From positions 1 to 47,731 of the forward strand of contig JAIXUU010000415.1 in the NCBI GenBank assembly GCA_027483405.1: 47,731 bases of DNA. Direction: 5' to 3'. The notes beneath the pieces are model-generated. The model was not told the DNA's origin, did not search any database, and worked only from the letters and a program-made list of their open reading frames with translations. The position numbers and the translations under genes are program-made. This document shows positions 25,503 through 40,388 of the stretch, in pieces. Source of the stretch: Planctomyces sp. (GTDB lineage Bacteria; Planctomycetota; Planctomycetia; Planctomycetales; Planctomycetaceae). Numbering within the stretch: the stretch's first letter is position 1; each line of letters opens with the position of its first letter.

Positions 25503-26411
25503 CTATCGAATGGCTTTGACCAGTGACCTGCGGTTCAGGTAATCGATCAAGGTTTCGGCAACAGGGATTCTTGTATCCATCACAATGTGTTCAATGCGAT
25601 TTCGCAGGCACATCTGTTTGAAGTTTTCAAGATACTCATTGAAGGCAGCTAGATACTCACGCCGCACATCTTCAGTCTGAGTAAGATACTCCTCCGGAAG
25701 TTCAAGCCCTTTGAATTTCACCATTCCCGTGAAGTCGAAAGCAACTTCATGATGGTGAAGAACATGAAATAACACGACTTCGTGATTGTTGTAGCGCATC
25801 CGCTGCAGGACAGGTTCCAGCGATTCGACATCTGTCAAAAAATCACTGAAGATCATGATGATTTCACGACGTGCAAAGCGGCTGTTGAGTTGCGACAGGC
25901 AACTGGCCATATCGGTCTTGTCAATCGCATCGCATTCATCCAGATGCCGGGCCATGCGTATGATTTGTGACATCGAGTTTCCGGCAGGAATGGAGCCGCG
26001 GACGCGATTGTCAAAAGTAGCCAAAGAGACTTTATCGTTCTGCCGGACAATCGAATAACCCAGAGTCGTTGCCAGTTGGGCTGCGAATGCAAGTTTTTGT
26101 TCGAGACCTTCGCCATATCTCATCGAAGCACTGATGTCGAGAATCAGATGGGCGACGAAGTTTGTCTCCATCTCGTACTGCTTGATGAAGTAACGATCCC
26201 TCTTGTAGTACAAGCGCCAGTCAATGTGCCGGACATCATCACCAAGCACGTACTCGCGATGACTGGCGAACTCAACCGCGAAGCCACAAAGGGGAGACTT
26301 GTGAGCACCGGCGAGATTGCCCAGCACCATGCCCCGCGGCTCAATGGTTCGATCCGCCACTCGACCGAGTGTTTCCGCATCAAGATAGCGGGATAACAGA
26401 CTGCCAGCCAT
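25503..26411 (-). CDS. DUF58 protein (VWA-like), last gene of the MoxR/Bat cluster
   Basis: This is a 302-aa cytoplasmic protein. The DUF58 core EFASHREYVLGDDVRHIDW is followed by a VWA-like domain with the metal-site motif ILDISASMRYG and IIMIFSDFLTDVE. DUF58 proteins accompany MoxR ATPases almost universally and are believed to be adaptors or substrates of the AAA+ ring. GAGGA lies about 7 nt before ATG 26411. The gene is 41 nt after moxR and is the last of seven same-strand genes. It lacks the N-terminal membrane segments of longer DUF58 proteins. Confidence 0.92.
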   Translation of the reverse strand: MAGSLLSRYLDAETLGRVADRTIEPRGMVLGNLAGAHKSPLCGFAVEFASHREYVLGDDVRHIDWRLYYKRDRYFIKQYEMETNFVAHLILDISASMRYGEGLEQKLAFAAQLATTLGYSIVRQNDKVSLATFDNRVRGSIPAGNSMSQIIRMARHLDECDAIDKTDMASCLSQLNSRFARREIIMIFSDFLTDVESLEPVLQRMRYNNHEVVLFHVLHHHEVAFDFTGMVKFKGLELPEEYLTQTEDVRREYLAAFNEYLENFKQMCLRNRIEHIVMDTRIPVAETLIDYLNRRSLVKAIR

Positions 26412-26452: not shown

Positions 26453-27490
26453 CTACACCGCGACGGCTGCTGGTTTGGAGTATTTTCGGTCAGCCGGGAT
26501 TTCTTCGAGCAGCATGTCGATCAAACGATCGCTGTTGATATCCGCAGCTTGAGCAGCATAGTTCGGTGCAATTCGATGACGCAAAGCGCCCCGTGCGATC
26601 GCCTGAACATCAGCCGTGGTCGCATGATATCGACCGTAAAGGACGGCTCTGGCTTTAGCACATGTGACTAAAGTAATCACACCGCGAGGGCCGGCACCCC
26701 AATTGACCCACTTATTGACAAACTCGCGAGCTTCTTTGGAATTGGGCCGGGAACCGCGAACGAGAGCCCAGGCATATCCCAGCACCTGATCGCTGACGGG
26801 AACTCTCGTGACGAGTTTCTGAAACTCAACAATATCGGCGGCAGTCATGACAGGTTCGATGGTGCCCATTTCACCCGAAGTGACTCTCCGGGCGACTTCC
26901 CATTCGTCGGCAGCGGACGGATAATCAACGCGGATATGCAGCAGGAAGCGGTCCAGCTGTGCTTCCGGTAAAGGATAGGTGCCTTCCTGTTCAAGCGGAT
27001 TTTGAGTGGCCAGGACAAAGAACGGATTTGGCAGTTTGTGGACTTTTCCACCGGCAGAAACCTGCCGCTCCTGCATGGCTTCGAGCATCGCGGCCTGTGT
27101 TTTGGGAGGAGTTCGGTTGATTTCATCCGCAAGAATCATGTTGGCAAAGAGTGGACCGGGCAGAAATCGATACTCACGCTCGCGGGTCTGCAGATTTTCC
27201 TGAATGATGTCTGTCCCGGAGACATCACTGGGCATTAAATCGGGGGTGAACTGAATCCGCTTAAACGACAGATGCAGGGCCTGGGCTAACGAACTGACCA
27301 GCAGAGTTTTGGCGAGACCAGGCACCCCTTCCAGCAATGCATGCCCGCGTGCAAAGATAGCCACCAGCACCTGCTCAATGACATCCCCCTGCCCCACGAT
27401 TACTTTTGAAAGCTCATCACGAAGCTTGTTATACGACTGCTCACAGCGCTGTACGGTGGCAAGGTCGTCAGAGTTCTGGATCTCACTCAT
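26453..27490 (-). CDS. MoxR-family AAA+ ATPase
   Basis: This is a 345-aa ATPase. Walker A is GVPGLAKT and Walker B is MILADEINRTPPKTQAAMLEAMQE, followed by the sensor region VLATQNPLEQEGTYPLPEAQ. The C-terminal lid domain fits the MoxR proper subfamily. MoxR proteins form hexameric chaperone-like rings that help assemble or activate VWA-containing partners, and three VWA-type proteins are encoded in the same transcription unit. AAAGG precedes ATG 27490. It lies 77 nt after the giant coiled-coil gene and 41 nt before the DUF58 gene. Confidence 0.95.
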   Translation of the reverse strand: MSEIQNSDDLATVQRCEQSYNKLRDELSKVIVGQGDVIEQVLVAIFARGHALLEGVPGLAKTLLVSSLAQALHLSFKRIQFTPDLMPSDVSGTDIIQENLQTREREYRFLPGPLFANMILADEINRTPPKTQAAMLEAMQERQVSAGGKVHKLPNPFFVLATQNPLEQEGTYPLPEAQLDRFLLHIRVDYPSAADEWEVARRVTSGEMGTIEPVMTAADIVEFQKLVTRVPVSDQVLGYAWALVRGSRPNSKEAREFVNKWVNWGAGPRGVITLVTCAKARAVLYGRYHATTADVQAIARGALRHRIAPNYAAQAADINSDRLIDMLLEEIPADRKYSKPAAVAV

Positions 27491-27567: not shown

Positions 27568-30500
27568 TCAGTCCTTGCTCTCGAAGTAGCGTTTCAGCTT
27601 TTCTTCGTAAGCCCGTGGTGCTTTCTGTTGACTGTTTGCTCGAATGGCATTTCTCAATTCGGGGGGAAGTTTGGCAAACCACGGCTGCTGTTCGACAGGT
27701 CTGGTTCCACCTGAACTGTCGCGCCCAGCCACTTTTCCTGCCTGAGTGGGAGGCACTTTATCAGCATCAGCGGGAACTTCTCCATTCGCCTTGAGGCCTT
27801 GATTCTCAGTACCCTCCCCCTGTTGTACCCCTTGAGCAGAAGTGGATTGTGCTGAACTGGCATTCGAAGCCTGGTTCGACATGGCTGCCGATTCAGGGCT
27901 GGGAGTTCCCGGAGCATCTCCCGTCGCTTCAGCCAGAGCACTCTGGCTGTCGTTCATCGCTCCCGTTTCAGAAGATGCCAGATCGGCGAGAGCGGCATTC
28001 AAAGCCTCCTGGGCTGCACTTCCCGCCATCATGCGGGCGGTGATTTCGGGCGAAGAAGGTACGAAATCACTTCCCAGATCATTCGGATAAGCACCTTCGG
28101 TTGAAGATTTCTCGGAGCCTTTTCCAGGAGCCCCCTGTGATTGAGCCTGGCTGGCTTTCCCGGAACTCTGGCCAGATGCCTGATTTGCGGGATCACTGTT
28201 CTCACTGGCAGAAGCTTGAGCGTTGCCAGCATCGGCAGCTTGACCAGCCGGTGAATTGTCCGAAGGAGAGGATGGCTGATTCGAAAGTTCGCCAGCAAGT
28301 TCTCCCGCTGATTTCAAAGCTTCCTTAAGTGCCGAATTCCCGACTGCCTGCTGTCCAGACAAGCGCGAGACCGCTTGACCAGTGGCCCGCTGGGCCTGGG
28401 CAAATTTTTGAGTGGCTTTGGCCAACTCAGCCGCGTTCATACCGGGTGCAGCAGAACCGTTCTCTGCCGCCTGTTGGGCCATTTCCCGCTGATCATTGAT
28501 CTGTTGGGCAGCCGCCTGTTGGGCTTTGGACTGGTCGGCAATGGCCTGAGCAATGGCGGCTTCCTGCCTGAGCTTCTGCTCAGCCGCAGCCAGATTCGCA
28601 GCAGCTCTCGCCAGGTCAGTTTCTACCTGATCCCGTGTTTGTGCCAAAGCTTTGGAATCAGTTGATGAAGGCGAATCTCCAGATGCTGCCTGAGTCATTG
28701 CTGTTTTCGACGAACTGGCTTGGCTTTTTGATGTTCCCGCAGCCTCCTGATCGGCTTTTGATGAGTTGGCTGCCTGCGCGCTGTCGCTGTTCGATGGATT
28801 GGATGGCGATGAATTGGCACCCGGTTGAGAGGTGTCTGTAGAAGCTGTTTGAGCAGATTTCTGGGGCAGGTTGGCGCTATCAGCGTTACCAGTACCCTGA
28901 GTCTGTGCCTCTGGGCTTACTCCCTTTGAGGCCATGCCTTGACGCGAAGCTTGTGAAGCAACTTCGTCACCTTCATTCGCAGCGTGTGCCAATGCTGCTG
29001 CAGCCGCTTCATCGATTTCAGCAGCTTTGGCAACCAGATCACCCGCCTGATCGGCTGTCCTGGCCAGTTGACTGGCCTGTTCTGCCATAGCCTGTTTGAG
29101 CGCCTGCTTCAACGAACTTTGAGCTGCTTGCAGTGCAGCTAAGGCTTCCTGCTGATTCTGGGAAGCGGTCGCTTGATCTCCCTCCTCAAGCTGACTGGCG
29201 GCTTTCTCTCCAGCAGTTTTCGCCTCTTGCAATTCCTGCAATGCCGCTTGGGGTGCAGCGTTCATTTTTTCGCCTGAATTGGCGGCTTTTTGCACGGCCT
29301 TTTGCGAAGCCTCAATAGCACGATTGGCCACCTGTTGATCCTGAACGTTACCTTTATTCCCTGCTGGATTTTTAGCTGCTGGATTTTCAGCAGCCTGATC
29401 ACGGGAGGCTTGTGCCTTCTGACGAGCGGTCTCTTGAGCCTTCTGCATCTGATCGCTGGCTTTTTGCTGTGCTTCAGCGGCCTGTATCGCTTTCGATGAT
29501 GCCAAGGCCTGTGCCGCAGCTTCCGCATTGGAAGCAGCCTGAGAGAGTTGTTCCTGCAGACCAGTTTCCATCGGAAGTTCTTTCGCGACACGACTGGCTG
29601 CCGCCTTGAGTTGATCAGCAATCTCCTGCTGTCTGGCAGCTTGTTCAACGCGATCTGCCGCGGAGAGAGCGGGAGCTGTCTCAGTTCCTGATTTCGAAGT
29701 TTCCTTACTTGCGGGATTAGCCTCGCTGGCTTTCTGCATGGCTTGCGAAAGTTGATTCAATTCCCGTTCGACGGCACTGGCTGTGGCAGCTTCTTTCGAA
29801 CCACTGGCTTTCAACTGAGCTTCAACGGCATCGCTGAGCAGTTCCTTAGCCTGAGCAATCTGCTCAACAAGATTGGAACGAGCTTCCATCTCCTGAGCGA
29901 GAACCTCTTCAGCTGCGGCTTTTACCTGAGCAGCTTCATCAGCAGCCTGTTCACTCAATTTCGCGAGAGCTTCTGCCTTTTTCTGTACGTCATCTCGTAA
30001 GGCGTTTGCCGCTTCTGCCAGTTTTTGTGCAGCGTCTTCAGCGGCCTGTCCCGCTTTCTCAAGTGATTCTTTACTGGAAGGATCGTTGGAGCTTTGATTC
30101 TTAGCCTCGTCGAATGCCTCAGTCGACTTCTGAGCAGCAGCCTGAGCTTGCATGAGTGCCGCTTGGGAAGCGACATCGGCCTCTTGCGTTGATTTCTCAA
30201 TCAACTTGGCGACATCGGCCACATCTTTCGCTCGTTCGGCCAGTTCTGTTGCAGCCTGCGCTGGCTGAGTTGGAGGAGTCTTTGCCAGATCTTGTGCTTT
30301 CGCTGCAATGGCCCGTTCTTCTGAGGCCGCCCGTTCCAGAATCTCGGCAGCGCGGGCGAGTTCTCCGATTTCCAGGGCAGAAGCTTTTCTTTCGGCAGCC
30401 GACTTTTCCCGCTTGATGGTCGCCTGCGCTAATTCGAGAGCACTTTTCGCTTCAGAGAGCTCTCCAGCGTTGAGTTCGTTCGCGGGTTTGGCGGCTGTAG

Positions 30501-31938
30501 CTGTTGTTTCGGCAGCCATTTCGATGGCGGCGTCAACATTGGGAGGTAACTGGCCGATCTCCTTGGCCTGCTGTGTTCTTTCTTTCGCCTGGGCTGCCGC
30601 TTCCACTGCACTTTCGGGAGTTGCAGCAGGAGCTTCCGCGACCTTTTCCAAGGCTGTGTCAATTCGCGATGCCGCTTCAGAGATCAGCTTTTCGGCCTGT
30701 TCGAGCCTGGCGACATCGGCTTTCAATTCAGCTGCCGCCTGATCGGTCGTTGAACTGGCGGCTTGACGAGTCAATTCGGCTTCAAGTGCCGACAGTCGTC
30801 CAATCACGGAGTTCTGTGAAGCGAGTGCAGAGTTTGTCTCATTTTCCAGCAGCTTGGCTGTGGCTTCAAAAGCAGCCTGTGCAGCCGCTTCGACGTGCTC
30901 CTGTGCCGTACGAGTTCCGGTGATCTCGCTGGAAAGTGCTGCCACCTTCTGCTGGAGAGCTGATTGCTGATTGACGATTGCTTCGGGAACTGGCTCGCCT
31001 TGATCAAGTTGAGCAACCTGATCCCGCAAAGCCTTTTCGGCTGCCAGCAACTCTCTGACTTTTTCAATCGTCTGTTGTTCGCGGGAGTCGAGAAGCCCTT
31101 GAGTTCGTTCGATCACACGCAACAAATCCTGCAGCCCTGCAATGACCAGAACCTGCTGATGACTGGCAACCGCATAATCTGCATCGCGAAGACTCTTTTC
31201 GGCCTGATCGAGATGCTTGCCCACCTGCTTTTCTGACAATAGCGCAATTCCAGCAGTTGCGCCCTCGCCAATTGTGCCCCCCCAATTGCGGACATCTGAA
31301 AGTGTCCCCACAAGTTGCACAAAGAGACCACTCACATCCCGCTGATCCTCGCGAGTACGAATGGCCAGGCTTTCTTGAAGAGTTTTCGATTCTTCGGGAA
31401 TGCGGACGGTCTGTTCCTGCACTGTGGTCTGATGTTTGATCAACCGCTTGACTTGCTCGGCCAGTTCCGCCGATTTGAGCCTGCGCAGAAGATTCTGCCG
31501 CTCGGCCGAGAGACGGATCACGATGTTGCGAATCGTTTGCCGGGCTTCGATAAAGCTGGCTTCCCGTTCTTCGGGATTTAGATCCTGAGCATCTGCCAAT
31601 TGCTGAACGACCTGTGCCATCTCGGTATCGACAAGATTACCGATGTTGCTGTGCATCACCTTGATGTCGCGATAGACCGAAATCTCCGTAAGGCCGTTTT
31701 CTTCGAGTTGTCGAAGTTGCACATCCAGGACGCTGGTTAACAGGTCGCGTGCCATGGCACGGGCACGCTGCTGATCATCCTGTTTTCGGCGCAGCATCGC
31801 GCCGTCAATCGCAGGCGGAGCAGCTAGAACCGGGCATACCGACCAGTCATCAACGACTCCGTTACTGGCCACAACCAGCAAGAGGCTCAAACCGTGACGA
31901 ACATAGACGCGATTGAACAGTGACTTCGACTCGTTCAC
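27568..31938 (-). CDS. Giant Ala/Gln/Ser-rich coiled-coil envelope protein, unknown function
   Basis: This is a 1456-aa protein. A hydrophobic segment near the N terminus (SLLLVVASNGVV) and an AAPP cleavage-like site suggest export. Residues about 60-470 look like ordinary long helices (RLSAERQNLLRRLKSAELAE, LLRVIERTQGLLDSREQQTI). From about 470 to 900 it is dominated by Ala, Glu, Gln and Lys coiled coil. From about 900 to 1400 it is mixed helix and Ser/Asn/Gln/Gly-rich low complexity, probably disordered. The last 40 residues are well ordered and rich in aromatics (PWFAKLPPELRNAIRANSQQ, then YEEKLKRYFES), a tail I associate with planctomycete DUF4175-type proteins. The start is GTG 31938, overlapping the previous stop by four bases, with GGAGG six bases upstream. 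I know no characterised homologue. Confidence 0.85.
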   Translation of the reverse strand: MNESKSLFNRVYVRHGLSLLLVVASNGVVDDWSVCPVLAAPPAIDGAMLRRKQDDQQRARAMARDLLTSVLDVQLRQLEENGLTEISVYRDIKVMHSNIGNLVDTEMAQVVQQLADAQDLNPEEREASFIEARQTIRNIVIRLSAERQNLLRRLKSAELAEQVKRLIKHQTTVQEQTVRIPEESKTLQESLAIRTREDQRDVSGLFVQLVGTLSDVRNWGGTIGEGATAGIALLSEKQVGKHLDQAEKSLRDADYAVASHQQVLVIAGLQDLLRVIERTQGLLDSREQQTIEKVRELLAAEKALRDQVAQLDQGEPVPEAIVNQQSALQQKVAALSSEITGTRTAQEHVEAAAQAAFEATAKLLENETNSALASQNSVIGRLSALEAELTRQAASSTTDQAAAELKADVARLEQAEKLISEAASRIDTALEKVAEAPAATPESAVEAAAQAKERTQQAKEIGQLPPNVDAAIEMAAETTATAAKPANELNAGELSEAKSALELAQATIKREKSAAERKASALEIGELARAAEILERAASEERAIAAKAQDLAKTPPTQPAQAATELAERAKDVADVAKLIEKSTQEADVASQAALMQAQAAAQKSTEAFDEAKNQSSNDPSSKESLEKAGQAAEDAAQKLAEAANALRDDVQKKAEALAKLSEQAADEAAQVKAAAEEVLAQEMEARSNLVEQIAQAKELLSDAVEAQLKASGSKEAATASAVERELNQLSQAMQKASEANPASKETSKSGTETAPALSAADRVEQAARQQEIADQLKAAASRVAKELPMETGLQEQLSQAASNAEAAAQALASSKAIQAAEAQQKASDQMQKAQETARQKAQASRDQAAENPAAKNPAGNKGNVQDQQVANRAIEASQKAVQKAANSGEKMNAAPQAALQELQEAKTAGEKAASQLEEGDQATASQNQQEALAALQAAQSSLKQALKQAMAEQASQLARTADQAGDLVAKAAEIDEAAAAALAHAANEGDEVASQASRQGMASKGVSPEAQTQGTGNADSANLPQKSAQTASTDTSQPGANSSPSNPSNSDSAQAANSSKADQEAAGTSKSQASSSKTAMTQAASGDSPSSTDSKALAQTRDQVETDLARAAANLAAAEQKLRQEAAIAQAIADQSKAQQAAAQQINDQREMAQQAAENGSAAPGMNAAELAKATQKFAQAQRATGQAVSRLSGQQAVGNSALKEALKSAGELAGELSNQPSSPSDNSPAGQAADAGNAQASASENSDPANQASGQSSGKASQAQSQGAPGKGSEKSSTEGAYPNDLGSDFVPSSPEITARMMAGSAAQEALNAALADLASSETGAMNDSQSALAEATGDAPGTPSPESAAMSNQASNASSAQSTSAQGVQQGEGTENQGLKANGEVPADADKVPPTQAGKVAGRDSSGGTRPVEQQPWFAKLPPELRNAIRANSQQKAPRAYEEKLKRYFESKD

Positions 31939-33770
31939 TTGGTACCTCCAATTCCCAGTTCGCGCTGGATAATGGCATCGAGTTGTCTGGCTGACTGCTG
32001 ATCGGTTTCGAGTAATCCGGCGAGAATGCCACTTTGATCAGTGACCTGAAATGTAAGTGGCTCACTGCGTCCAACCTGTGAACGGAGATTTCCCCGCTCG
32101 TCTTCAGCTTCGACGATGACACGCACTTCGTCACCTTTGGCCAGTCCCAAACTGGTGAGATCAAGAGCGGTCTGCCCTCTTTGCAAAGAATTCTGATCTT
32201 TCAGAAGGACAGGCTGTTTGATCGCGCGTTGTTGACCAGACTCTGTGGTAGCCGTCACGTGAAGTGAGACAGTTTTGAGAGCGTAATCATCAGTCGCCCC
32301 CCAGGTGATGACGGGTGACGCCTGCGGAAGAATCAGCTTGCTGATCGCCACTGCAGCGACACGCGGTGGTTTATCGAGTTTGATCCGCAGCATTCCCGTC
32401 ACAGGTTCGGCCAGTTTCAAACCATCAAGATCTTCGACATCCAATTGAAAGGTCAGATTTTCTTTCAGAGTATCCAGGGGTGAACCCGGCTCTGTCATCC
32501 AGTGCGTAAACCCTGTTGGTAGTGAACTTGAGGAACTCGACACCTGAGACTGTGAGGTGACTTTCGTAGAGTTCTTATCGACGGGTGAAAGATCAAAAGG
32601 TTGCCCATTGATCGTCATCGTCACTTTGCGTAAGGGCTTAACTGAAGAAATGTTGAGTGCCACTTTTGAGCCTTCGAGGACAGAAACCTGCAGCTGCCCT
32701 CGCGCTGGTGGACGATTGCCTTCTTTGAGACGGGTATATTCTGGTTGTTCGACAAGAACCGAAACCTCGACTACGGGGCGCATGATCAAGTCGATTATCA
32801 ATGGCTGGCTCTGGGCATCTCCGGCACGAACGATCCCTCGAACCGATTGTCGAAGTCCAGGAATGACGGCGCCATAAGTTTTCAGCTTATGATCAGCACT
32901 TTGGCTTATGGAAGCCTTGGCATCAGCAGGCTGGTGATTCTTCAGACCATCCGCTTTGAGTTCGACGATCAGGGATTCACCAGGAGCAGCCTGCATCTCC
33001 CAGGTAGCGATATGCGGATCTTCACCGGAAGTCTGCACTTCGATGGCAAGTGGTTCCCCTTCCACAATACGGAAGAGGCCTTGTTGATCAGCCGTTTTCC
33101 CATTAACGCGAATCCATTCGATCTGTGTGCGAGTCGGATAGCTCTCATGACTTAACAGGAGACGACTGAAAAAGACTCTCGTTGCCTGAGGAGCGAAGAC
33201 TGCCAGTCCGCTCCAGATCAGGAGTCCACATAAAGCTGCCAATAAACTGTTTCGAAGAGGTTGCCACGAAAATCCGTCAAAGACATTCAGTGAAGGAGTA
33301 AACTCATCGACATACTCGACGACAGCTCGCGCCAGTTCTCGTGAGCCATAACGCCGCTGAGCGGGGTTAGCAAATTGCAGAGCAGCGACCAGATCACTTT
33401 CGATCTCGTGCTGCTTTTCCACCTGCAATGCCAGAGATTCGAGATCTTCCCAATTCTTCCAGGCGGGAATGACGTAGCGAATCATCAGCGTAAGAAAAAG
33501 TGTGGCCACCACCAGACCTGAGACAAGTCTGGCAACCAACGACAAGCGGAAGGAATAGTCCACAGCAAAGAAAAACAGGCCCATCACTCCTGCCAAAGTG
33601 ATGAGATATAGGGTGGAACGCAGACCGCTGCGAAGCCACTTCCGGCTCTGCAAACGACGGAGTTCGTTCTTCAGCAAACTGAGTGGTGTTGCAGAATTTC
33701 TGACCGATGCCGACGGATTCAATTCGAGGATCGAATCTTCGCCAGAATGGGGAAAGGGAGTTGAACTCAT
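31935..33770 (-). CDS. Three-TM protein with periplasmic domain (DUF4175-like)
   Basis: This is a 611-aa membrane protein. Two helices lie near the N terminus (about 52-72 STLYLITLAGVMGLFFFAV and 78-100) and a third around 175-195 (LLAALCGLLIWSGLAVF). A long beta-rich segment of about 400 residues follows, presumably outside the membrane, with repeated immunoglobulin-like strand patterns (VEVSVLVEQPEYTRLKEGNR, ITWGATDDYALKTVSLHVT). The organisation matches the N-terminal part of DUF4175 proteins. The coiled-coil protein downstream carries the kind of C-terminal tail expected of that family. ATG 33770 overlaps the upstream stop by four bases, which fixes the start despite an open frame to 33836. 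Confidence 0.82.
   Translation of the reverse strand: MSSTPFPHSGEDSILELNPSASVRNSATPLSLLKNELRRLQSRKWLRSGLRSTLYLITLAGVMGLFFFAVDYSFRLSLVARLVSGLVVATLFLTLMIRYVIPAWKNWEDLESLALQVEKQHEIESDLVAALQFANPAQRRYGSRELARAVVEYVDEFTPSLNVFDGFSWQPLRNSLLAALCGLLIWSGLAVFAPQATRVFFSRLLLSHESYPTRTQIEWIRVNGKTADQQGLFRIVEGEPLAIEVQTSGEDPHIATWEMQAAPGESLIVELKADGLKNHQPADAKASISQSADHKLKTYGAVIPGLRQSVRGIVRAGDAQSQPLIIDLIMRPVVEVSVLVEQPEYTRLKEGNRPPARGQLQVSVLEGSKVALNISSVKPLRKVTMTINGQPFDLSPVDKNSTKVTSQSQVSSSSSSLPTGFTHWMTEPGSPLDTLKENLTFQLDVEDLDGLKLAEPVTGMLRIKLDKPPRVAAVAISKLILPQASPVITWGATDDYALKTVSLHVTATTESGQQRAIKQPVLLKDQNSLQRGQTALDLTSLGLAKGDEVRVIVEAEDERGNLRSQVGRSEPLTFQVTDQSGILAGLLETDQQSARQLDAIIQRELGIGGTK
31945..31950 (-). promoter_or_regulatory. 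Ribosome-binding site of the giant coiled-coil gene
   Basis: TGGAGG on the minus strand, six bases before GTG 31938, lies within the end of the upstream gene. It supports the unusual GTG start and the GTGA overlap. Confidence 0.8.
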
Positions 33771-36256
33771 GGCAGGTTCACTCCTTTTCTGATGGCCCAT
33801 TCGAGGCTGAGTAAAGTCACAATCAAGCCCAGGCAAAGCCAGGTGGCCCAGATCGGAAGAATCACAACCTGTTGAGCCTGGAATTGCGGCGCTCTGATTT
33901 CTTGAGCCAGCTGATCGAGTTCATTCAATTCGCAGGCTTTGCCACCGGTTTCTGTTGCCAGAGAGATCTGGAGTGCGCTGTTCCTGACGGCTGAACGTCT
34001 TTCGGCAGATGAAGAAGCCACATGAAATGAGGTCGAAACTGATTGTTTTTCAATGGGGTCGAAGATCGTTAACTGATGTTCTCCCCCTTGTGTGACCTGC
34101 AGCCTCGTTTCAAAGACACCTGGCTTCAAGGCCGGGATCAATAGCTGCTGAGGCTCCAGCCCGGGCGTTTCCAGATTACTCAATTCGGAACTCAATCGAC
34201 CATCAGGGATCTGATCTGCCCCAAGAGGATTGAAGTTCTGATCGTAGGCTTCGACAGTCACAACAATCTTTTCATCGGCGCGATAGCGGGATTTATCAGT
34301 CCGCACGACGAATCGTTTCTGGTTTCCGACAGCATGACTTAGCCCTAAACGGTGAATGAGTTGTCCCCAGAATTGGCGGTAATAAGACTCACCATAGAGA
34401 CGGCGCAGCCGCCACATTTCGTTATGGGCAATGTAAATCACTTCGCCCCGGCCATATTTGCGAATAGCGATTAAAGGCTGATGGGTCTTTCCATCCGCAC
34501 ACAGGGCCGTGGGGTGTTCTGCCAAAACCGTTGTCGAGCGTGGTTCGACTCTCAGAACAGGCTGATACCAGGGCACTTTTCCCAGATTTGCCCACGCCCG
34601 GCGATCTTCTTCGGCCGTTTGTCCTAATCGCATGAAGTCGAACTGACTGGCCAGTGGTGTCAGTTTCATCGCGAACTCCTCGCGATCATCAAGACGTCCA
34701 TCGGGATCGACGACCACGGGGAGCATGTCGGCCAAGGGTGTTTGAGCCAGTTCGCCGGGACCGAAGCGAGGCCCGGCCATCACGACCAGACCACCTCCAA
34801 ATTGACCTACAAATTCTCGTGTCAATTCGCAGAAGCGACTGGTCAGCGAGGCTGCCGGCATATCACCGAGAAAAATCACATCCGTTTGAAAGAACTCATT
34901 GCGAGGAAGCGTGAGGGACGGCAGAAAGAGATCATTGGTCTCGCGAACGACAGGATCGGCCGAGCGAAGATAAGTACGAAATCCCCGCATCCCCACGAGA
35001 CGGTCTCGATGGAAGACCTCCTTGATAAACCGCCATTCCCAGGTGGGTTCGTACTCCACAAACAGCAGTCTAAGGAAATCATCGATAACGTTGACGTCTT
35101 TCGTGACTCGATTGTTTTCAATCACCGTCTCACCGGGGATCGCCTCGACTTCTGCAACGAAGACCATCCGTCCCGCCTGATCGGGCAAGTAAGGAAACTC
35201 CACGGGGAGACTCGCCGAAGAAAGGCGAATCTGTTGTGACCCGATCAAACTGGGAGGAGTTTCGCCACTGGCAGGCTGCACACTCAACTTCACTTGAACC
35301 GTTTCGCCCTGGTTTTCGCGTTGCCTGACTGTCACAACGACCGTCGATGTTTCTGCCTTTTTCATAGTCGGAGGAACGAGCAAATCGACAGAAAGATCTC
35401 TCGCTGAAGTTGGCCCGACACCCACGGCATAGACAGGGACATTGAGCCGCCTGGCACTGGAAACGGCATTCGGGCCAGAGTTCTGATCAAAGTCACTGAC
35501 GACGACCAGCCCCGCCAGATGATCGGTCGAATATCTCCTCGCCAGATCGTCAATCGCTGCTCCGTGGGCAGAAACCTCGCCTTTCGTTTCCCACAACTTG
35601 AGTGAATTCAAGAGAAGGTTGACAGAGTCCTGTTCGTCGCTTTCGCCTGAACCCAGAAGGCCAGCGAGAGCCATGGAGTTCTGGACGGGAGTTGAGTCCT
35701 TCTTTTCCGCAGACAGGACACGAACACCCTGTTGATCGACCATGGAAAAGAGTCGAATACGAAACTTCTCAGCCAGTTCCTGAACAGCCTTTCCACCGTC
35801 CTTCTCCAAGGCCTGGCGGACTCGTTCAGATCGAGATAATAGTGGCTGAGGCGAAGAGGGAGAGGCGTCACCGGCGCCTGAGGCTTGGTTGACGGAAGGA
35901 TCTGGTTCCACCTCATTTTCGTCAGCAATTTCCATGCTTTCACTGCCATCCAGCAGCACCCAGAGCCATGGTTTGGGGTAACTGATAAACTTCAGTTCTA
36001 AAATCGGCTCTGCAAGAATGAGCACCAGCAATGCCAGGACGAGAGCACGAAACGCTGCCAATAAACCTCTGGTTTTCGACCACTTCCCGCCTTGAAAACA
36101 GAGATAATAGAGACCACTCAGCATGGCAGCGGCAGCCAGCAGGACGATGAGCAGCCAGCCATTGTCCTGCACCCAGGGAGCTGCGAAAGAGATCCTTCCG
36201 CCGGAAAGTTCGTTCAGATTATCGATCCCCAGAAGCTGTCCCAACCACTTCATCAT
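33767..36256 (-). CDS. VWA / glutamine-amidotransferase-like membrane protein
   Basis: This is an 829-aa protein with two N-terminal helices (GWLLIVLLAAAAMLSGLYYL; then a second around ALVLALLVLILAEPIL). Next comes a VWA-like domain with the metal-site motif LLDGSESM, and GLVVVSDFDQNSG. A second part (about 450-620) has the class I glutamine amidotransferase-like fold (FGGGLVVMAGPRFGPGELAQ), seen in Bat-associated proteins without a clear catalytic cysteine. The C terminus ends in a single helix (VVILPIWATWLCLGLIVTLL). The start is the first ATG of ATGATG at 36256, after GGAG, and overlaps the BatA stop. It probably exposes its VWA domain on the membrane as a partner for MoxR or DUF58. Confidence 0.85.
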   Translation of the reverse strand: MMKWLGQLLGIDNLNELSGGRISFAAPWVQDNGWLLIVLLAAAAMLSGLYYLCFQGGKWSKTRGLLAAFRALVLALLVLILAEPILELKFISYPKPWLWVLLDGSESMEIADENEVEPDPSVNQASGAGDASPSSPQPLLSRSERVRQALEKDGGKAVQELAEKFRIRLFSMVDQQGVRVLSAEKKDSTPVQNSMALAGLLGSGESDEQDSVNLLLNSLKLWETKGEVSAHGAAIDDLARRYSTDHLAGLVVVSDFDQNSGPNAVSSARRLNVPVYAVGVGPTSARDLSVDLLVPPTMKKAETSTVVVTVRQRENQGETVQVKLSVQPASGETPPSLIGSQQIRLSSASLPVEFPYLPDQAGRMVFVAEVEAIPGETVIENNRVTKDVNVIDDFLRLLFVEYEPTWEWRFIKEVFHRDRLVGMRGFRTYLRSADPVVRETNDLFLPSLTLPRNEFFQTDVIFLGDMPAASLTSRFCELTREFVGQFGGGLVVMAGPRFGPGELAQTPLADMLPVVVDPDGRLDDREEFAMKLTPLASQFDFMRLGQTAEEDRRAWANLGKVPWYQPVLRVEPRSTTVLAEHPTALCADGKTHQPLIAIRKYGRGEVIYIAHNEMWRLRRLYGESYYRQFWGQLIHRLGLSHAVGNQKRFVVRTDKSRYRADEKIVVTVEAYDQNFNPLGADQIPDGRLSSELSNLETPGLEPQQLLIPALKPGVFETRLQVTQGGEHQLTIFDPIEKQSVSTSFHVASSSAERRSAVRNSALQISLATETGGKACELNELDQLAQEIRAPQFQAQQVVILPIWATWLCLGLIVTLLSLEWAIRKGVNLP

Positions 36257-39054
36257 GGCTGTGCTCCTTTCCTGCCGGAGAACGTTCGCCGCGAAGCAAC
36301 AAACATTTCGAGGAGCAAAGACGCGATCATCAATCCAATGGCGAGTTGCCATAAGCTCTGGCCACGATTGCTGCCACCAGTCAGCAAAGGTTTTTCACCT
36401 GCGGCAAGAACACGGACATGTGTTGATGAAACCAGCTCAGCAAGTTCATCTGTGGGTAAGGTTTCGAGACTGGATTCGATCGCAGGGGCGCTGACAGCGA
36501 CAGAATAAATGGCACGCTTTTCAGTCCCGGATGCGGTCGATTGATTACCCGTTTGAGAACTATCGCCACGAGTGCTCTCATCACGAGCAGGATTTGCAGA
36601 AGCATCACTTCCTTGTGACTGAAATTCATAGAGCCCCGACATGACTGGCCGCCGAACGATGTAGCCATAGACATCGGAACTCAAGGCTTCCACGGAGACG
36701 ACATTGACAGATCCTTCGGGCCGTTTGAGAAGCAGAGAATCGCTGGTCGTGGGAGCTAACCATTGGATGCGGGAGCCAGCTTCAAAATTTCTTTGTGGCA
36801 ATGATTGAGAGGCCATCTGTGTGAGCAATCGATGGTACATGAACATCGCTGGTGAGAGGCGTATGAGGTTCCAGTCGCTGGTAATGCCGCTGGTGCAAAA
36901 GAGGACGCGCCCATCTTCGACTTGCCGCTCAATGAGAAAAGGCAGATTCTCTGTAGAGTACCTGGCGAGAACCTGAGGCGTTTCCCGCCGAGCCAACTGA
37001 GAAAGCCGCTCATCGATTTCTGTTTTGAATTGCTGAGGTGATGCCAACAGGTTGCGGGATTGCGGTTCGGACGGTGGTGTCAGATCCGTCGGCTTCTGCT
37101 GGAATTGATCGTGTTCCGTCCGTTTTAACTCCGCCAGCTTCTGAAGCTCCTGGCGAAGTGGAGTGATGGGTGCTCTCCAGTTCCACCAGTTCACCGTTTG
37201 CGCAGCAGGCAAGCGAGACTGCTGATCGGCGGATGATCCACTCCCAAGGCCGGCCTTGAACGCCAATCGCTGTTGGACGGACTGCAGGATGGCATCGATC
37301 GATTCTTGACTGGCATTAGCCTTAACGGCTTTAAAAAACAGAACTGATTCAAAGAGCGATTTGATGGCTTGAGGGTCTTCGCCCTCGACCTGAAATAACT
37401 CGCTGTTCAATGATTCTGAGGTGATTGCAAATGGCGAGAGCTGACTTGGTGATTCTTCAGGCGTCGTTCCAAGAAACTCAGTTTCCAGAGGGAGGGGCAA
37501 CAGACCTTCACCATCCAGCCAGGCATCCTCCATCCATCCACGGGGATCGAATTCACCGCCGGCACAAATCAAAAGAGGGCCACCCTGGCGGACATATTCG
37601 AGCAGTAATTGTGTTGCGACACCGGGTCGTTCAATCCCGGCGATCACGACACAACGAGCCTGAGCGAGAGTTTCCTGATCAAGCTCATCGATACGCCGGC
37701 GGATGATCTGATAGAGGGGACGATGTGCAAATTCCGAAGTTGACCTGGGGGCCAGCAGATGCTGCAAAGCCTCGGTCTCGCCGATTTGTCCTTTGGCCGC
37801 ATTGGCCTGTTCACCCCATTGATCGACAAACACAATCGGGACGGCTGTCAGCACGGGCGCCAGAATCGTACGACGATTGTCTGCCAGCAGAAGATCGGCT
37901 TCAGGAGTCTCGGAAGAGATTTCCAGTGTTAGTTCGACCCATTGCGGACGCTCTGGATCGACCTGGCCATCGTAACTCCAGAAGAATTCAGCCTCGTATT
38001 GCTGATTGGGCAATAGAGGAATGACCTGATTGGCAACCTCAGTCCGGTCGGCCAGCAAGCGGGCATACACCGTTGTGGGAGCTTGATCGGCACCCGCTTC
38101 AATTCGAGCGATGATCCGGGCCGGTGTCTCGACACTGATCAAGCCATCTTCAACCGCCAGGCTGGAAATGTGCACATTTCCAGAATCGGCAGTTCCACAG
38201 GGAACAATCTGCACATCGGCTAACTCTTCAAAACGCTCCTTGAGTGAAGCATCTTTCCAGAGCGCCCCTTGCAGATCGGAAAAGATCACGACCCGCTTGA
38301 CGGGCAGATCCGTTGAAGTTCGACTCGCTTCTAAGGCGAGTTCGGCAGCTAAACGTGGTGAGCCAATCGTATCGGCCACTCGAATCTGTTCGATCGCCTG
38401 CCGGGCATCATCCATCGAGCGAAAAGGATCTGTCGGCCAGGAGTCAGAGCTTCCCGCTAGTGGCAGGACTGTGGCACGGCTTCCGGGTGGTAAACTGCTC
38501 AAAAACTCCAGTGACGATCTTCGGGCAGCATCCCAGCGTGTTCCACTGATGACACCCGCTCCCATACTCCGACTGTTATCGAGTATCAGAATGGCATGCA
38601 CAGGATTCAGTGAGCTGGCGAGACCAGCGCCCCCTGTGTTCCCGGCTCCCAGGCTCCACCATAACCCGCAGATTGCGACCAACGAAAACAAACTGACGGT
38701 GGCAGCAATGGCGCGGGCCTTGAATCCTTGATTGATCACCATGGCGGCCATGCCTGCCATCCCAACGAGACCAGCCACAACGAATAAACTCGTCATCCAG
38801 GCAGAACCGCCAGAAACCCAGGGCCTGGCCAACGCCAGACCGAGGCAGATCAATGCACTCATCCGCAGAATGAGCAGCAGCCAGTCTCGCAAATGCAGAA
38901 TTCTCTTCTGGCGCTCAATCGCCTTACGGAGAAACTCCATAGCTGCCCACTCAACCTGTCGAAATCGACGGCGGTTGAACAAATGAATCAGCAATGGCGA
39001 CGCAGCAGCGACCAGACCAGCGATAGCGAAACTGTAGGCATCAAAACCGAACAT
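36253..39054 (-). CDS. BatA-domain / VWA membrane protein
   Basis: This is a 933-aa protein that begins with the aerotolerance-regulator N-terminal domain (PF07584): AIAGLVAAASPLLIHLFNRR, then RQVEWAAMEFLRKAIERQKR and a membrane helix. Further helices follow to residue about 130. A VWA domain comes next (VHAILILDNSRSMG with the metal-site pattern D-x-S-x-S, and VKRVVIFSDLQGALW). The large remaining part resembles the glutamine-amidotransferase-like region of its neighbour. One C-terminal helix is seen (LAIGLMIASLLLEMFV). In Bacteroides, Bat proteins were linked to oxygen tolerance, but the molecular task is unknown. It is 68 nt after the terpenoid-cyclase-fold gene. Confidence 0.9.
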   Translation of the reverse strand: MFGFDAYSFAIAGLVAAASPLLIHLFNRRRFRQVEWAAMEFLRKAIERQKRILHLRDWLLLILRMSALICLGLALARPWVSGGSAWMTSLFVVAGLVGMAGMAAMVINQGFKARAIAATVSLFSLVAICGLWWSLGAGNTGGAGLASSLNPVHAILILDNSRSMGAGVISGTRWDAARRSSLEFLSSLPPGSRATVLPLAGSSDSWPTDPFRSMDDARQAIEQIRVADTIGSPRLAAELALEASRTSTDLPVKRVVIFSDLQGALWKDASLKERFEELADVQIVPCGTADSGNVHISSLAVEDGLISVETPARIIARIEAGADQAPTTVYARLLADRTEVANQVIPLLPNQQYEAEFFWSYDGQVDPERPQWVELTLEISSETPEADLLLADNRRTILAPVLTAVPIVFVDQWGEQANAAKGQIGETEALQHLLAPRSTSEFAHRPLYQIIRRRIDELDQETLAQARCVVIAGIERPGVATQLLLEYVRQGGPLLICAGGEFDPRGWMEDAWLDGEGLLPLPLETEFLGTTPEESPSQLSPFAITSESLNSELFQVEGEDPQAIKSLFESVLFFKAVKANASQESIDAILQSVQQRLAFKAGLGSGSSADQQSRLPAAQTVNWWNWRAPITPLRQELQKLAELKRTEHDQFQQKPTDLTPPSEPQSRNLLASPQQFKTEIDERLSQLARRETPQVLARYSTENLPFLIERQVEDGRVLFCTSGITSDWNLIRLSPAMFMYHRLLTQMASQSLPQRNFEAGSRIQWLAPTTSDSLLLKRPEGSVNVVSVEALSSDVYGYIVRRPVMSGLYEFQSQGSDASANPARDESTRGDSSQTGNQSTASGTEKRAIYSVAVSAPAIESSLETLPTDELAELVSSTHVRVLAAGEKPLLTGGSNRGQSLWQLAIGLMIASLLLEMFVASRRTFSGRKGAQP

Positions 39055-39122: not shown

Positions 39123-40388
39123 CTACCGAGGTTTATTCGCCGCAGGTGGCCCGGATAACTGATCTTTCAAACCTTCGATCTTCCCTTCCTGGAGAATCGG
39201 GAGATATCGATTGGGCATTGCCAGAATAAAGCAGGCGACGGCTGTCCCATAGAGTTGCCCCTGTTTTCCATGCACCCAGCGGGTATCGCGCCAACTGCCG
39301 TCTTCACCGGGATTCTCCGGACGCTTGACCTGGGAAGCGACGAGATAATCTCGAAGTGCAGGATAATTCTTCTGCCAGTCGGCTCCACCTGTCTGATAAA
39401 TTGCCTGTCCGACGTAGTAGAGCGTATAAGCATCAAAAGGGACTTCACCACTACCACGATTGGGGCGAATGCGACTGACTTCTTTCGAGATCTGTTCCAT
39501 GTTCTTGGCAATCCGCCAGTCGTCGTATTGGCCAAACTCCTGTAGACAAACAACTCCACAAGCAGCCATCGCGAGCGTGGTACGATTCCCATCGTAAGTG
39601 AACTGACCGGGCCCTTCCTGAGCTTTCTCATCAAAGCCACGAGCACCATTTTCGGCTTTGTAATGATCTCGCACACTCTGTATCGCAAGGCGAACGACAT
39701 CGTTCCGCACTTCGAAACCACTATCGACAGCACTTCGAAGTGCCTTGGCCTGCATCACGACAAGGCTTAGATCATGGCCATGCTGCTGCCTTTTGGCGCG
39801 ATAATCCCATCCCCCGTCTTCGCACTGGGTATTCGATATCAGCCTTAAAGATTTATCGAGCACGCGGCCAATTTGCGGGTCGCCAGTCATGCCGTAAGCC
39901 TGCCCAAGCACAAAAGCAGCGAGCCCGTGGTTATACATATCGCGTTGGGCATCGGCGGAATTGAGAAGCCCCGAAGGTTTGGCTTTTTTGAGCACATATT
40001 TGAATGCGCGATCAACGGTATCCCCATACCGCCCCCGCTGTGGCAGGTGACCTGCCGCTAGAAACGAGAGACCGCCGAGACCGACAAGACCAAGATCTTC
40101 CGACTCCCAGTTTCCTTCAGTCCCCTGATTTCGAGCGAGCCAGGCCAACCCTTTCTGAAGTGCTGCTTCGCTCTCTGGAGTCACTTCCCAACCGGGGATC
40201 GGCTTGCTGGAACTGACTTGATTCGCTCCGTCCTGAGCAATTGCGAGCCGCTGACCCGCAACATCAAGGCATCGATCTGCTAACAGCAGTAAGCCAACCA
40301 TACCGCAGCAAAGACGCCAAGACGACTCATGGTGGTGAGGAGTTCGAATTCCAGAAAGCAGTAATGTCCAGCATGTGGCAAGGTTCAT
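39123..40388 (-). CDS. Terpenoid-cyclase-fold repeat protein, exported, first gene of the cluster
   Basis: This is a 421-aa protein with an N-terminal hydrophobic segment (CCGMVGLLLLADRCL). Alpha/alpha-barrel repeats with QW-like motifs follow: EGNWESE, EDGGWDYRA and EDGSWRDTRW, each preceded by a helix pair (LQKGLAWLARNQG, AFVLGQAYGMTG). This is the prenyltransferase/squalene-oxidase repeat fold. The DXDD catalytic acid motif of squalene-hopene cyclases is not visible, so it is unlikely to be a hopene cyclase. Many planctomycetes carry such exported proteins of unknown role. ATG 40388 opens the presumed seven-gene transcription unit; its promoter should lie in 40389-40800. Confidence 0.85.
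   Translation of the reverse strand: MNLATCWTLLLSGIRTPHHHESSWRLCCGMVGLLLLADRCLDVAGQRLAIAQDGANQVSSSKPIPGWEVTPESEAALQKGLAWLARNQGTEGNWESEDLGLVGLGGLSFLAAGHLPQRGRYGDTVDRAFKYVLKKAKPSGLLNSADAQRDMYNHGLAAFVLGQAYGMTGDPQIGRVLDKSLRLISNTQCEDGGWDYRAKRQQHGHDLSLVVMQAKALRSAVDSGFEVRNDVVRLAIQSVRDHYKAENGARGFDEKAQEGPGQFTYDGNRTTLAMAACGVVCLQEFGQYDDWRIAKNMEQISKEVSRIRPNRGSGEVPFDAYTLYYVGQAIYQTGGADWQKNYPALRDYLVASQVKRPENPGEDGSWRDTRWVHGKQGQLYGTAVACFILAMPNRYLPILQEGKIEGLKDQLSGPPAANKPR

Follow-up and report, generated by a model that had tools for sequence, protein, structure and literature searches.

A probable detached coiled-coil half of a three-transmembrane envelope protein in a planctomycete MoxR-VWA operon

Pairs of a MoxR ATPase and a VWA protein of the NorQ/NorD and RavA/ViaA type act from the cytosol. 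Operons that combine MoxR with VWA proteins are widespread, and the function of the Bat type is described as unclear. MoxR proteins and their VWA partners are described as remodelling target proteins (PMC13036017); the VWA domain of the Borrelia BatA homologue BB0173 lies in the periplasm (PMC5700661), and the title of a Rhizobium study on RL3499-RL3502, as cited in PMC5118466, names morphology and envelope defects. Here we analyse an operon of this kind in a 47,731-nucleotide stretch of Planctomyces sp. (assembly GCA_027483405.1, contig JAIXUU010000415.1; hereafter the window). Our subject is CC1456, a 1456-residue coiled-coil protein with a conserved C-terminal tail, whose gene lies between that of TM633, an inner-membrane protein with three transmembrane (TM) segments (a 3TM protein) and an immunoglobulin (Ig)-like remainder, and that of MoxR. 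We propose, with a probability of about 0.6, that an envelope protein of 3TM-Ig-coil-tail organization is here divided between two genes, TM633 supplying its membrane half and CC1456 its C-terminal half, which is exported to the periplasm.

Like the moxR-DUF58-batA (MRP-type) operons, the window contains a MoxR protein of the AAA_3 family, a DUF58 protein, a protein with the BatA N-terminal domain and VWA, and a further VWA protein. However, MoxR and DUF58 come last in its operon, and its 3TM-Ig and coil-tail genes go unmentioned in the passages on Bat operons considered here (PMC5700661, PMC11834572). No tetratricopeptide repeat protein of BatC/E type was recognized among the operon proteins scanned, no systematic search for such repeats being made. 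NorQ/NorD, RavA/ViaA and other MoxR-VWA pairs also unite the ATPase with a VWA partner, whereas the two VWA proteins of the window appear to face the periplasm and are joined by an exported coil. The likeness to TolA is one of working principle only, namely a long helical periplasmic segment linked to the inner membrane and ending in a docking part; CC1456 differs from TolA in lacking a membrane anchor, and it does not match the Pfam TolA family. A likeness to DUF4175 (PF13779) emerges through one relative (L085; 2065 residues, with the tail and with BatA and VWA neighbours), which scores 49.3 bits against a cutoff of 27.3. The hidden Markov model (HMM) of the TM633 family detects this protein at E 7.8e-24 over residues 51-543, overlapping its PF13779 match at 349-621. 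Only L085 passes the PF13779 gathering cutoff; CC1456 and TM633 gave no hit, and every other fused protein that was scanned fell short of the model. The window version differs from DUF4175 in being two genes with an exported coil.

The relationship between the two genes was recognized from single-chain relatives. The TM633-family HMM matched most of the first ~550 residues of nine proteins of 1073-2065 residues (E 1.8e-48 to 9.8e-11), while shuffled-sequence controls gave E-values of 0.05 or weaker. On profile-profile comparison, TM633 aligned with the fused proteins that bear the tail at 3.5e-49 and with those that lack it at 1e-54. CC1456 matched residues 536-1247 of the tail-less set at 4e-10; against the tail-bearing set its coil scored 1.4e-5 (hhalign), and its tail matched the last residues at 2.5e-9. 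Where the tail is present, it is the last 35 residues of the fused protein that match CC1456. A column-permuted profile of the CC1456 N-terminal domain, used as control, gave no match. As TM633 corresponds to the first half of the fused proteins and CC1456 to their coil and tail, CC1456 apparently constitutes a detached periplasmic half of a 3TM protein with a distant likeness to DUF4175.

TM633 matches occur in 240 of 248 genomes of the class and are bimodal: the strong ones are stand-alone frames of ~570-730 residues aligned nearly to the last position of the model, and the weaker ones are mostly frames of 1100-1430 residues, with a third group at ~700-850 residues. Most of the class encodes the 3TM protein as a single, longer polypeptide of ~1100-1400 residues. 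At seven loci (L214, L217, L220, L224, L227, L228 and L229) a 3TM protein of 757-833 residues is followed by a 637-712-residue match to the fused profile and then by a tail protein of 183-407 residues.

Topology and signal peptides were judged from hydropathy and inspection. Judging from the three TM segments and from a positive-inside pattern read by inspection, the Ig part and the coil probably lie on the non-cytosolic side; a detached coil would therefore need a signal peptide, and CC1456 appears to have one. Some points weigh against the proposed origin and role of CC1456. The match between the coils is moderate, weaker than that of TM633 and exposed to compositional bias. The two-gene form may have arisen by fission, or the fused form may be the derived one; many genomes contain fused paralogues alongside the split pair. 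Moreover, the localization of CC1456 is deduced from sequence, and its function and the binding partner of its tail are inferred.

The gene and its regions are as follows.

27568..31938, minus strand: CC1456, a probably exported coiled-coil/tail protein of 1456 residues; GTG start, stop codon at 27568-27570
31813..31938, minus strand: probable signal peptide, residues 1-42 (VRHGLSLLLVVASNGVV...VLAAP), from direct sequence and hydropathy
30667..31812, minus strand: conserved N-terminal helical domain, residues 43-424, from alignment, model and substitution rates
28963..30663, minus strand: Ala/Glu/Gln-rich coil, residues 426-992, from composition and homologue alignment
28645..28962, minus strand: poorly conserved, often absent S/A-rich segment, residues 993-1098, with 66-85 % gaps in homologues
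28291..28644, minus strand: second conserved coil, residues 1099-1216, from conservation and model
28003..28071, minus strand: short conserved motif (FVPxSPExTAxxMAG) at residues 1290-1312, within a disordered linker
27571..27705, minus strand: C-terminal tail, residues 1412-1456 (WFAKLPPELR...PRAYEEKLKRYFES), from alignments and two predicted helices

CC1456 is a genuine gene under purifying selection. Its N-terminal domain has a ratio of nonsynonymous to synonymous substitution rates (dN/dS) of 0.06-0.07 against the two closest genomes and its tail a dN of 0, while constraint on the S-rich insert is much looser; identity to a relative of the same genus (L027) falls from 77 % in the N-terminal domain to 49 % in the main coil and 23 % in the S-rich part, but reaches 87 % in the tail. 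The GTG start follows a Shine-Dalgarno sequence, TTGGAGG, and shares a 4-bp GTGA overlap with the stop codon of the upstream TM633 gene, and the homologues in the complete loci of relatives measure 1081-1579 residues. The low complexity of the protein could point to a spurious reading of a repetitive stretch; the low dN/dS, the conserved tail, the Shine-Dalgarno sequence with its coupled start and the homologues at dozens of loci leave that idea with practically no credibility. No tandem repeats of note were found in the DNA examined.

The extreme length and Ala/Gln/Ser-rich composition remarked on in the initial annotation are evident (A 21.6 %, Q 10.5 %, S 9.5 %). Its layout of an Ala-rich coil followed by low complexity needs one correction: the ~380 residues that open the mature protein (43-424) are conserved, all-helical (AlphaFold mean predicted local distance difference test, pLDDT, 82) and not of low complexity. 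The Ala-rich coil comes after them (about 426-992) and is succeeded by the S/A-rich segment, the second coil, disordered linkers and the tail. The view of a long, helical protein beyond the cytosol agrees with this model and with the probable signal peptide, hydrophobic N-termini being present in the homologues as well; CC1456 is thus probably exported. Pfam and NCBIfam scans returned no family for CC1456, which is no proof of novelty. A PDB sequence search with its N-terminal domain and tail gave weak helical or unrelated matches only. Foldseek found no relative of the N-terminal domain at E <=0.001, and as the best matches were generic helical bundles (vinculin/catenin, GPCRs), they were left uninterpreted.

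The tail, a plug-like piece of 45 residues, is the best conserved part of CC1456. Its alignment across 15 homologues is free of gaps, with nine invariant residues (W, L, P, P, Y, E, L, Y, F), and the model contains two helices (1426-1437 and 1442-1455; pLDDT 71-78) behind a linker of pLDDT 34-47, in keeping with the ordered tail originally predicted; order and conservation are what one would expect of a docking element. Its conservation, named beforehand as the point on which that prediction could fail, extends to 69 genome loci. A role of the tail glutamate as ligand of a metal-ion-dependent adhesion site (MIDAS) was considered and dropped, since relatives carry E, Q, K or R at the position following the conserved Tyr.

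The tail is found at the end of the fused protein, at the end of a separate coil as in the window, or in a small exported protein next door. At 15 loci with a tail-less single-chain 3TM protein the downstream neighbour encodes a small tail protein; in the 14 loci measured, the two genes adjoin and share a strand. These proteins mostly have a visible signal peptide and end in WGHLPPELR...LPxYxxLIxRYY; those scanned against Pfam and NCBIfam gave no match above cutoff. By hhalign their tails match that of CC1456 (E 2.2e-9). The fused-protein tails match the CC1456 tail at 6.4e-13 and the small-protein tails at 1.5e-11; 20 column-permuted tail controls all stayed below 4 % probability. A tail-only search covering the whole of 16 other genomes, chosen mostly for their TM633 matches, gave 26 matches. 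Of the 22 loci examined at gene level, 21 link the tail to the 3TM protein: six carry it within that protein and 15 in a separate protein encoded immediately downstream, in some cases behind a 3TM protein split into two pieces. The exception, L215, has a 212-residue, probably exported tail protein encoded next to MoxR-DUF58-BatA but on the other strand. Two further matches adjoin a 3TM gene by coordinates, and the remaining two belong to G358. As judged from these sequences, all main architectures retain the tail, however the proteins are divided among genes. In genomes it marks the 3TM partner almost without exception, and it persists through rearrangement into separate genes; it therefore points to one short, testable contact.

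What the tail contacts can be viewed in two ways. The N-terminal domain might be held by the 3TM/VWA complex while the tail crosses the periplasm to a peptidoglycan or outer-membrane component, as TolA does to Pal. The long helical body, with disordered linkers and then an ordered tail, would suit such an outward strut, as would the second conserved helix of the small tail proteins, a possible inner anchor; however, the one constant companion of the tail is the 3TM protein, and no family binding peptidoglycan or the outer membrane was matched in Pfam or NCBIfam, which makes the outward contact rather unlikely. Since the 3TM protein accompanies the tail so constantly, we favour binding to the complex itself, the likeliest target being one of its own membrane proteins (3TM/Ig or VWA).

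In the arrangement we favour, the N-terminal helical domain of CC1456 would re-associate with TM633 and the VWA proteins at the outer face of the inner membrane, its coil and flexible linkers would form a long strut or tether, and the tail would act as the docking element that holds the exported protein in the complex. MoxR and DUF58 would drive or gate the complex with ATP from the opposite, cytosolic side, and by analogy with related operons the likely role would be envelope integrity. A broader proposal can be made only tentatively: the tail may serve generally as the docking module of an ATP-driven envelope machine of Planctomycetota that has so far gone undescribed. This machine would consist of MoxR/DUF58 in the cytosol, VWA and 3TM-Ig proteins in the inner membrane, and an exported coil; the cluster could be divided into one to three polypeptides provided that one exported C-terminus bears the tail, and Planctopirus genomes would carry several such machines.

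The genes around CC1456, in the order BatA-VWA > VWA861 > TM633 > CC1456 > MoxR > DUF58, are listed below with one upstream neighbour.

39123..40388, minus strand: exported or anchored 421-residue protein weakly matching terpene-cyclase-like repeats; whether it belongs to the unit is uncertain
36253..39054, minus strand: BatA-type protein (PF07584 and VWA_2) with a MIDAS-type DNSRS motif
33767..36256, minus strand: VWA861, TM-anchored, 829 residues from ATG 36256, with a MIDAS-type DGSES motif and a weak DUF7408 match
31935..33770, minus strand: TM633, 3TM and Ig-like inner-membrane protein, 611 residues from ATG 33770, from hydropathy and profile matches
26453..27490, minus strand: MoxR AAA+ ATPase (AAA_3; PF07726, E 5.7e-62)
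25503..26411, minus strand: DUF58 protein (PF01882, E 1.1e-40) with a MIDAS-type DISAS motif

The BatA-type protein combines the BatA N-terminal two-TM domain with VWA (PF07584, E 2.8e-19; PF13519, 7e-7), and TM633 has three hydrophobic segments, an Ig-like remainder and a conserved end, a PDB sequence search with it giving one weak match. The BatA/VWA861 and VWA861/TM633 junctions are ATGA overlaps with AAGGAG-like sites; with the GTGA overlap at CC1456 and the ribosome-binding sites, the four genes look translationally coupled. The 3TM and MoxR neighbours of CC1456 noted at the outset are both in place, and its proposed membership of their cluster is supported by the same six-gene order at many loci of relatives; other loci have TM633 and CC1456 without the full partner set in the stretch fetched.

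Planctomycetes have many unusual wall proteins. One might accordingly regard CC1456, with its extreme low-complexity composition, as a stand-alone structural protein of the cell wall or surface that merely shares the operon; its homology to the C-terminal half of fused 3TM proteins, the strict synteny and the coupled translation render this very improbable. The recurrence of the two genes as neighbours, in an unchanged order, across many genomes, and the cooperation of MoxR with VWA partners in target remodelling (PMC13036017), could also make CC1456 or its tail a client of MoxR, as initially proposed. Hydropathy finds no TM segment in MoxR or DUF58, which are therefore probably cytosolic, whereas the probable signal peptide of CC1456 places it on the other side of the membrane, and its constant companion is the 3TM protein. 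Furthermore, fused tail-bearing 3TM proteins of 1431, 2143 and 1748 residues (L216, L219 and L222) have no VWA or MoxR gene recognized within ~8 kb. The substrate proposal is thus improbable, and CC1456 is most likely a coil/strut subunit of the MoxR-VWA envelope complex, held by its tail.

Of 59 related genomes, 22-23 contain homologues of the CC1456 N-terminal domain. The 69 loci matched by the tail profile, all in the GTDB collection, are nearly all titled planctomycetes, the few others being titled Kiritimatiellia, Candidatus Nealsonbacteria or plain 'bacterium'. Contigs of metagenome-assembled genomes titled Candidatus Nealsonbacteria or Kiritimatiellia (L117, L156 and L158) carry planctomycete-type operons, and some of these oddly titled contigs may be mis-binned; apart from these three, all relatives found belong to Planctomycetota.

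Nothing linking DUF4175 with MoxR, or Planctopirus limnophila with MoxR, was found in the literature searched, and the operon is not discussed in the passages found of the essential-gene papers on P. limnophila and Verrucomicrobium or of the Tuwongella proteome paper; such absence is no proof of novelty. P. limnophila, apparently of the same genus as the source and with an unusual envelope, has been the subject of a genome-wide transposon study (PMC10632474), so the prediction is directly testable there.

The genome of the window has three further VWA/3TM operons (L213 on C220, L214 on C258 and L166 on C230). One codes for a fused protein of 1545 residues that ends in RSQVPEQYRQRFEAYTRG plus a short stretch; another has a separate 294-residue tail protein, and one has a two-piece 3TM protein with a 388-residue tail protein. 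The 421-residue gene at 39123-40388, just upstream of BatA, shows weak squalene-hopene-cyclase-like repeats, and homologues of its product occur near some MoxR/3TM loci (L028, L084 and L085).

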